DNA of 64,000 nucleotides from Bradyrhizobium diazoefficiens (GTDB taxonomy: Bacteria > Pseudomonadota > Alphaproteobacteria > Rhizobiales > Xanthobacteraceae). Made by a program: the position numbers and the translations under genes. Every line of letters starts with the position of its first letter. Position 1 is the stretch's first letter. Of the stretch, positions 32,513 to 33,412 are shown one piece after another. Where the stretch lies: positions 4,774,001 to 4,838,000 of the forward strand of contig NZ_CP067101.1 of the NCBI RefSeq assembly GCF_016616425.1, written 5' to 3'. The notes beneath the pieces are model-generated. The model had not been told where the DNA came from. It saw only the letters and a list, made by a program, of their open reading frames with translations, and made no database searches.

Positions 32513-32770
32513 TGCTATTTTGATCTGTTGCGATCAGGTTATCTTATCCTGAGAAGATCTGCACGGGTGTGGAATAACTGCCGTAGGCTTCGGGATCGCA
32601 GACAGCGTCGCGGCGGCCGCGTCAGCTGGGGTCGCATCGCCTCGAGCAGCTCAGCTCTTGGAGACAAACTCGACCTACACCAGCTCGAGCTAACGCGACC
32701 TTCGCGCCCGGGAGCCTGAGCGCGACCATCCAGCGAACGCGATCGCAGAAAATCGTAGGAAATCGTGGAT

Positions 32771-32844
32771 TGGAGCGGGTGAAGGGAATCGAACCCTCGT
32801 ATTCAGCTTGGAAGGCTGCTGCTCTACCATTGAGCTACACCCGC
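32771..32844 (-). tRNA. tRNA-Gly (TCC anticodon)
   Basis: On the minus strand GCGGGTG at the 5' end pairs with CACCCGC, followed by TCCA with encoded CCA. The anticodon loop CTTCCAA gives TCC, and the TPsiC arm is GGTTCGATTCC. 74 nucleotides including CCA. Confidence 0.95.
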
Positions 32845-32957
32845 ATTACGGGCTGCCTAACACGGCCGGGCTTCGGTCTCAACTGTCCAGGAGGTCGCTT
32901 TCCGACGTCGTCCCGGCCCTTGCGAACCGCCTCGGTTCCTGCGGAGCCGCCCGCCCC

Positions 32958-32986
32958 TTAACAGCGGCGACGACGCCGCCTATATT
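32958..32986 (+). promoter_or_regulatory. Sigma70-like promoter with internal palindrome
   Basis: TTAACA (32958-32963) and TATATT (32981-32986) are separated by exactly 17 bases. The spacer contains GCGGCG-ACGA-CGCCGC, a perfect 6-bp dyad that could be an operator. Transcription would begin about 20-25 bases before the extended Shine-Dalgarno. Confidence 0.65.
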
Positions 32987-33006
32987 GAGGTCTTCCGAAA
33001 CCAACG

Positions 33007-33066
33007 AAAGGAGGTGATCCAGTGTCTTATCTCAAGCGCTGTCACCTCGCTGGGATCGCCCGCTAA
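33007..33066 (+). CDS. 14-codon leader ORF with full-length Shine-Dalgarno
   Basis: AAAGGAGGTGATCC at 33007-33020 is complementary to the entire 3' tail of 16S rRNA, far longer than a normal site. A GTG at 33022, 7 bases after GGAGG, opens a frame of 14 codons (MSYLKRCHLAGIAR) ending with TAA at 33064-33066. Within this ORF, TCACCTC (33042-33048) is complementary to GAGGTGA (33011-33017) of the Shine-Dalgarno, so the RNA can hide its own ribosome site. No downstream gene is cotranscribed before the terminator at 33128. Translation is inferred from the site, not known; the range includes the Shine-Dalgarno. Confidence 0.45.
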   Translation, partial: KGGDPVSYLKRCHLAGIAR

Positions 33067-33127
33067 GCTTCGTTTACAGGCTTGGCATCGGGGCGCTCTC
33101 AGCCCTGGACCAGCGAGCACGAAATCG

Positions 33128-33163
33128 GGCGCGACGGGGCCTCCCCGCCGCGCCTTTTCTTTT
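33128..33163 (+). terminator. Strong rho-independent terminator
   Basis: GGCGCG-A-CGGGG, loop CCT, CCCCG-C-CGCGCC forms an 11-bp stem with one mismatch followed by TTTTCTTTT. It closes a transcript of about 170 nucleotides that starts from the promoter at 32958-32986. Confidence 0.9.
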
Positions 33164-33412
33164 GCGATTCGTTGATCGGGAAGCAGGGTCGGCCGGTCAG
33201 CCCGCGCCAAGCCGCTGCCGCCTCCAGCAGAAACCTTGTTGTTTGTGGTCATCAGTCGCAACCGCTTCCGGCGGCGTTCACGCGGCAAGACCGCAATCGC
33301 GTTTCGGGACGGTTTCGTCGCTTGCCGGTCACGCAATATTCTGCTTCGGGATTGTCGGCGCGGACTGCCGTGCTACGTCCTTGAGACTTGCACAGAAAAC
33401 GACGAGGTGACG

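Follow-up and report, generated by a model that had tools for sequence, protein, structure and literature searches.

A conserved mini-gene with a 17-nt Shine-Dalgarno in Bradyrhizobium diazoefficiens matches the small mRNA gene rreB and may form a hairpin opened by the ribosome

What purpose is served by a gene of some 200 bases that has its own promoter, a Shine-Dalgarno (SD) sequence pairing with the entire 16S 3' tail, a reading frame of 14 codons, and its own terminator, with no other gene in the unit? Such a unit lies on the + strand (32958-33163) of the window, the 64,000-nt stretch of the Bradyrhizobium diazoefficiens genome analyzed here (contig NZ_CP067101.1, positions 4,774,001 to 4,838,000). 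A first-pass annotation, made from the letters alone, had described it as a self-contained mini-gene. All of the parts that it listed (promoter, SD, 14-codon ORF, refolding segment, and hairpin) are in place, and they are given here together with the helices predicted in this work and the upstream neighbor.

32771-32844, - strand: tRNA-Gly (TCC), divergent upstream neighbor, outside the unit
32958-32963, + strand: -35 hexamer TTAACA, from the scan for promoter-like sites and recognized also in relatives
32981-32986, + strand: -10 hexamer TATATT, after a spacer of 17 nt
32993-33163, + strand: predicted transcript of about 165-170 nt, from promoter and terminator, with the start placed 6-8 nt past the -10
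33006-33022, + strand: 17-nt extended SD, GAAAGGAGGTGATCCAG, complementary without mismatch to the 3' end of the genome's own 16S
33006-33010, + strand: GAAAG at the SD's 5' end, mostly unpaired in the prediction, proposed toehold
33018-33019, + strand: bulge TC, the remaining SD bases predicted to be free
33011-33048, + strand: predicted helix P1 (RNAalifold), GAGGTGA and CAGTGT (33020-33025) with TCACCTC and GCGCTG (33036-33041)
33022-33066, + strand: ORF from GTG to TAA, 14 codons and stop, MSYLKRCHLAGIAR
33049-33114, + strand: predicted helix P2 (RNAalifold), GCTGGGA.CGCC (33049-33060) with GGCG (33092-33095), TC (33097-33098), and CCAGC (33110-33114)
33127-33163, + strand: intrinsic-terminator-like hairpin, then TTTTCTTTT, from the fold, with related loci showing similar hairpins by eye

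The TTAACA-N17-TATATT element is a near-consensus promoter of the sigma-70 type, and it is the only promoter-like site found on either strand between 32700 and 33400 (one site vs. a shuffle mean of 0.1). A promoter composed of TTAAC[A/G], a spacer of exactly 17 nt, and a TATA-type -10 was recognized in 35 of 39 loci, 38 of which are from the same genus (the window included) and one from another genus. The perfect GCGGCG/CGCCGC dyad in the spacer, which the annotation had singled out, is not conserved. A 6-bp dyad occurs in three of the 35 recognized promoters, the window's among them; it looks like chance, and an operator function was rejected. At the other end of the unit, the 11-bp hairpin that had been described is present and followed by TTTTCTTTT, while its stem (33128-33154, with an outer G-T pair added) is broken by one A/C mismatch. 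This mismatch is probably the reason that an automated terminator scan of 32700-33400 reports no terminator, though the fold shows the hairpin clearly. With respect to a leader-peptide or attenuator reading, the terminator-like hairpin follows directly, and the neighboring genes vary by eye among the loci inspected. The tRNA-Gly(TCC) also adjoins 7 of 54 other loci scanned (L003, L005, L015, L020, L023, L039, and L042), all of them close relatives, and was not found beside more distant loci in scanned flanks of up to ~1.5 kb.

The pairing of the SD with the 16S 3' tail was assessed within the same genome. AAAGGAGGTGATCCA is present there twice, once in the mini-gene and once antisense to the 3' end of a 16S gene (L032, assigned through its Rfam SSU match), and the 17-nt complementarity to the genome's own 16S is therefore real. 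The final G of GAAAGGAGGTGATCCAG also opens the GTG start codon. The mini-gene itself has one copy in the genome, and a plasmid search found no copy of it. A decayed rRNA fragment, an origin that the annotation had allowed for, was rejected: the window and L032 share only GAAAGGAGGTGATCCAG there, the rest of the gene is conserved independently, and no Rfam SSU match was found within the window sequence.

This combination of features has apparently already been described. The gene rreB of the Bradyrhizobiaceae reportedly encodes a free-standing mRNA of 165 nt with a 14-amino-acid ORF, a GTG start, and a 17-nt SD. The mRNA is said to co-sediment with 30S subunits, to be weakly translated, and to be stabilized when the start codon becomes a stop codon. 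From these features we take the mini-gene to be rreB, from which it is not known to differ; the identification is very probable, and the gene is hence not new. More specifically, the window holds the 17-nt SD complementary to its own 16S 3' end and the 14-codon GTG ORF, and its promoter-to-terminator span, judged from sequence only, fits the ~165-nt transcript. The self-contained, conserved character of the gene, as the annotation had it, is supported; a 241-bp query matches 24 of 24 other same-genus genomes, in what seems to be the same group in which rreB is said to be conserved. The strong 30S binding that had been postulated is expected for such an RNA and has reportedly been seen with rreB. 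Hahn et al. 2017 (RNA Biol 14:1353-1363) is cited in the accessible part of PMC7298713, and the accessible parts of PMC5082802, PMC10117765, and PMC4842269 do not mention the gene. What is added here to rreB are the counts for P1 and P2, the near-neutral peptide, and the toehold reading, which may already be in Hahn et al. 2017. The name BjrC1505 is listed among RNA families in the accessible part of a Herbaspirillum paper; identity with it was dropped, no such family being among the three Rfam matches (E up to 10) in the window stretch.

Beyond the genus, the same query matches 4 of 16 genomes of the order's other families, mainly across the SD, and a family-level search gave matches at E below 2e-15 in 39 of 149 genomes. 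For the comparisons, set A was defined through the string RCHLA and comprises 66 distinct loci, 61 of which form the A1 alignment (L040, L056, L135, L136, and L145 were excluded for insertions or odd 3' parts). Set B is a wider alphaproteobacterial set of 112 loci that includes L134, L137, and L139, clear relatives without RCHLA. All 66 set-A loci start with GTG, and their stops are TAG in 29, TAA in 27, and TGA in 10. TCACCTC (33042-33048), which complements GAGGTGA (33011-33017) exactly, is unchanged in all 61 A1 rows. On one contig of one genome (L014 and L030), an insertion of ~2.2 kb lies between the promoter and the SD of the gene, with CAACGAAAGG at both edges, resembling a target-site duplication; this is either a natural copy severed from its promoter or an assembly effect.

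A 173-nt stretch of the unit folds with -78 kcal/mol (z -4.2), and none of 200 shuffles is as low. RNAalifold on the 61-row A1 alignment predicts two adjacent helices, P1 and P2. P1 would bury the SD core and the start codon and leave free the five SD bases at the 5' end and a bulge of two bases. All 13 of its pairs form in each of 60 distinct rows (100% of cells paired), and the refolding of the ORF segment onto the SD, read by the annotation from a single sequence, is conserved in the form of this predicted 13-bp helix. Three of the pairs vary on one side, to another standard pair, and the other ten are invariant, so that most of P1 is without a covariation test. In P2, two pairs have changed on both sides, in 8 and 19 rows, and are mismatched in 3 and 5 rows. 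For P1 and P2 together, 99.4% of cells pair, compared with 32-55% after shifting the partners by 1-3 columns. The number of cells in which both sides have changed lies above all 500 shuffles; the numbers of pairs with such changes and of further pair types do not, being reached by 456 and 500 of the 500. P1 as modeled is thus strongly constrained while being barely tested by covariation.

Folding energies were considered next to the alignment. The duplex between the SD and the ORF body has -14.0 kcal/mol in the window, a value reached by 4.3% of 300 mononucleotide shuffles and 1.7% of 300 synonymous versions. Among relatives of the mini-gene type (10 loci skipped, duplicates removed), 40 of 52 have shuffle values of 0.010-0.063 and 12 are no better than shuffles (above 0.1), which makes duplex energy alone modest evidence. 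Sequestration of the SD core was predicted in 65 of the 66 set-A loci, the window included, vs. 22 of 40 after shuffling of the downstream sequence, and the median opening cost is 11.2 vs. 8.0 kcal/mol. In the window, opening the whole SD would cost 12.2 kcal/mol, and the 17-bp SD:16S duplex is calculated at -31.0 kcal/mol. The predicted unpaired probability is 0.72-0.94 for GAAAG, 0.88 and 0.97 for the bulge TC, and ~0 for 33011-33016. In set B, sequestration of the SD core is not above shuffles (47 of 112 vs. 14 of 40; median opening cost 6.2 vs. 7.1 kcal/mol). Sequestration across the whole class was therefore rejected, and the locking by P1 belongs to the window's lineage. L134 and L137 keep the SD and the P2 arm, with TGTCACC replaced and an ORF of 17 codons; by eye, GGGATCGCC could pair with the SD there in place of TGTCACC.

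On balance, the whole is probably best explained by an rreB RNA whose P1 is opened from a toehold and whose stability follows ribosome engagement. As modeled, the transcript would fold into hairpin P1, in which the SD core and the start codon pair with the ORF, hairpin P2, and the terminator. The free GAAAG would serve as a foothold for the last 16S nucleotides, CUUUC, in what we infer to be a strand invasion, and branch migration would then swap P1 for the 17-bp SD:16S duplex. The SD would be 17 nt long because a normal SD of 5-7 nt could not invade P1. The 30S subunit would bind tightly and leave slowly, so that initiation would be rare, and each round of translation would open the RNA, so that RNA stability would follow ribosome engagement. 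Selection would see how the ribosome binds, starts, and stops on a folded RNA, and not the peptide. The RNA may gauge free mature 30S or act as a sink for it, and titration or sensing of free 30S, as first proposed for the mini-gene, is a possible function.

Another arrangement would be a decoy, in which an abundant RNA keeps free 30S subunits in reserve and lowers initiation elsewhere. The 17-nt SD:16S pairing at -31.0 kcal/mol and the near-consensus promoter with its fixed 17-nt spacer would suit such an RNA. The burial of the SD core in P1, however, disfavors a constitutive sponge, as does the single gene copy in the genome, and we consider a decoy unlikely.

It could also be that the 14-amino-acid peptide is the product that matters and that the RNA features just set its level. 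Start and stop are indeed kept: in set A, 30 of 33 disjoint pairs align stop with stop, 8 of them with another stop type, and neighboring triplets are identical in 395 of 561 cases; among 13 close wider-set pairs the stop is kept in 12, of another type in 4, with neighbors identical in 151 of 221. Indels are rare in the ORF, with 2 over the 33 pairs vs. 70 in the 45 nt past the stop, and with 0 vs. 18 in close pairs of the wider set, a scarcity that an RNA constraint on the ORF could also explain. RCHLA is invariant in set A, though set A was defined by RCHLA. The peptide sequence itself speaks against this reading, with pN/pS at 0.96 over the 33 pairs of set A, where changes are few (40 nonsynonymous, 14 synonymous), and at 0.74 in the wider set (22 pairs). 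Counted by codon position (1/2/3), the differences number 14/10/8 over 15 pairs and 99/90/113 over 26 pairs. Furthermore, the invariant codons CGC TGT CAC CTC GCT coincide with the P1 and P2 arms, and L134 and L137 encode RRTLA and RGTLA in place of RCHLA. In distant pairs (56-92% identity), the stop is kept in 36 of 48 and 94 of 118 ORF indels are not multiples of three, a frame test that is uninformative or against. Start, approximate length, and stop look selected from these sequence comparisons, the peptide sequence hardly so, and a peptide-centered function appears improbable.

We give little credence to a trans-acting small RNA, in which the 30S subunit would open P1 and the freed UCACCUC, an anti-SD, would pair with the SDs of other mRNAs. 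The invariance of TCACCTC would agree with it, and the wider set also tends to have an SD-complementary ORF segment: in a group test on 109 of the 112 set-B loci, reduced to 33 representatives, the mean z is -1.38, 11 of the 33 reach p up to 0.05, and the combined p is 1e-9 vs. 0.12 for the reversed SD. The stretch past the stop, however, also gives a combined p of 3e-4, and part of the signal is therefore not ORF-specific. As for an anti-SD RNA from the opposite strand mimicking the 16S end, as the annotation had envisaged, its likelihood is negligible, the likeness being an automatic consequence of the SD, with no promoter-like site on the - strand between 32700 and 33400 and the conserved promoter on the + strand.

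The SD-start block of the mini-gene also heads a family that is scattered through the class and filed by Rfam as the sRNA CC2171 (RF01867). With up to two mismatches allowed, AAAGGAGGTGATCCAGTGTCTNAT was found in 132 of 397 order-level and 43 of 385 class-level genomes, with the reversed-pattern control at zero throughout. Among 182 genomes from the rest of the phylum, one has a match to a looser pattern, and that match lacks a start codon. Methylobacterium, Microvirga, Bosea, Brevundimonas, and others are named among the matches listed. One genome (G569) shows two extended-SD copies (C1:805113 and C1:2922045), and the other matching class genomes show one. The ORFs of set B have 21-27 codons in 99 of 112 loci, and many begin MSHC. 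RF01867 scores above its cut-off in 5 of 13 such distant loci; it has hits in 31 of 142 class genomes at E up to 0.01, five of them passing the cut-off, and in 42 of 61 family genomes at E up to 0.1, 18 of them passing it. The window matches with 40.3 bits (E 2.8e-7; genome-wide E 1.3e-6), which does not reach the gathering cut-off of 75, and it is therefore not filed under RF01867. With the SD block removed, the window (33030-33175) gives no RF01867 match up to E 10, and L044, a locus of the same type as the window, gives 21 bits without the SD (E 0.0058). In the accessible parts of the respective papers, Rfam 15 names RF01867 among the families improved with R-scape, with one extra covarying pair, and a Mesorhizobium survey has one predicted member.

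The Caulobacter sRNA CC2171 resembles the mini-gene in its 5' block (SD, start, TCT), its length of ~160 nt, and its terminator, whereas CC2171-type ORFs are longer, mostly 21-27 codons compared with 14. Loci of this type carry an SD, a start, and a stop although Rfam files the family as an sRNA. A 7-bp closing helix, mostly CATTGTC:GACAATG and present in nine sequence versions, was found in 54 of 111 CC2171-type loci (reversed-arm control: 1). In L111, L105, and L121, for example, CATTGTC belongs to the ORF, and its pairing partner GACAATG immediately precedes the terminator. As the closing helix uses these ORF codons, the peptide 'HC' is perhaps RNA-driven. In the 149- and 61-genome family searches, in which some candidates per genome were scored, strong matches of both types were never found in one genome. 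For this reason common descent of the rreB and CC2171 types is plausible from the sequences, albeit unproven. Shared synteny of both types was rejected: among the largest flanking-gene clusters listed (flanks of ~1.5 kb), one alone joins them, via two set-B loci. A literature search, with most subscription journals outside its coverage, found no account of a link between rreB and CC2171.

Taking the toehold-opened rreB RNA one step further, we tentatively envisage a natural toehold switch that has the mature 16S 3' end as its trigger, reads free, fully matured 30S, and is indifferent to peptide sequence. It would be one lineage's version of an ancient ribosome-gauge RNA of the Alphaproteobacteria, which the databases now divide between an mRNA (rreB) and an sRNA (CC2171); in this full form we regard the idea as doubtful. 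Were the mature 16S tail alone able to open the hairpin, the RNA would give cells a direct measure of free, finished 30S, a quantity that figures in theories of growth control and is difficult to determine in living cells. Should the link to CC2171 prove correct, the members of an Rfam sRNA family would be mRNAs. The near-neutral peptide suggests that being translated may be the reason why a 'small protein gene' is conserved, which calls for caution when small ORFs are annotated.

Two other known systems come close to this design. In synthetic toehold switches, a hairpin hides the ribosome-binding site or the start codon, and a trigger RNA opens it from a single-stranded foothold. The mini-gene differs in being natural and in that the 16S tail itself would act as trigger. 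In Staphylococcus aureus, according to the accessible part of PMC13009471, extended SD:anti-SD initiation is common in many mRNAs and guides start selection. The mini-gene likewise points to initiation through an extended SD:anti-SD helix; in S. aureus many mRNAs use it, whereas here it concerns one locus, with the SD and the start codon locked in a predicted hairpin.
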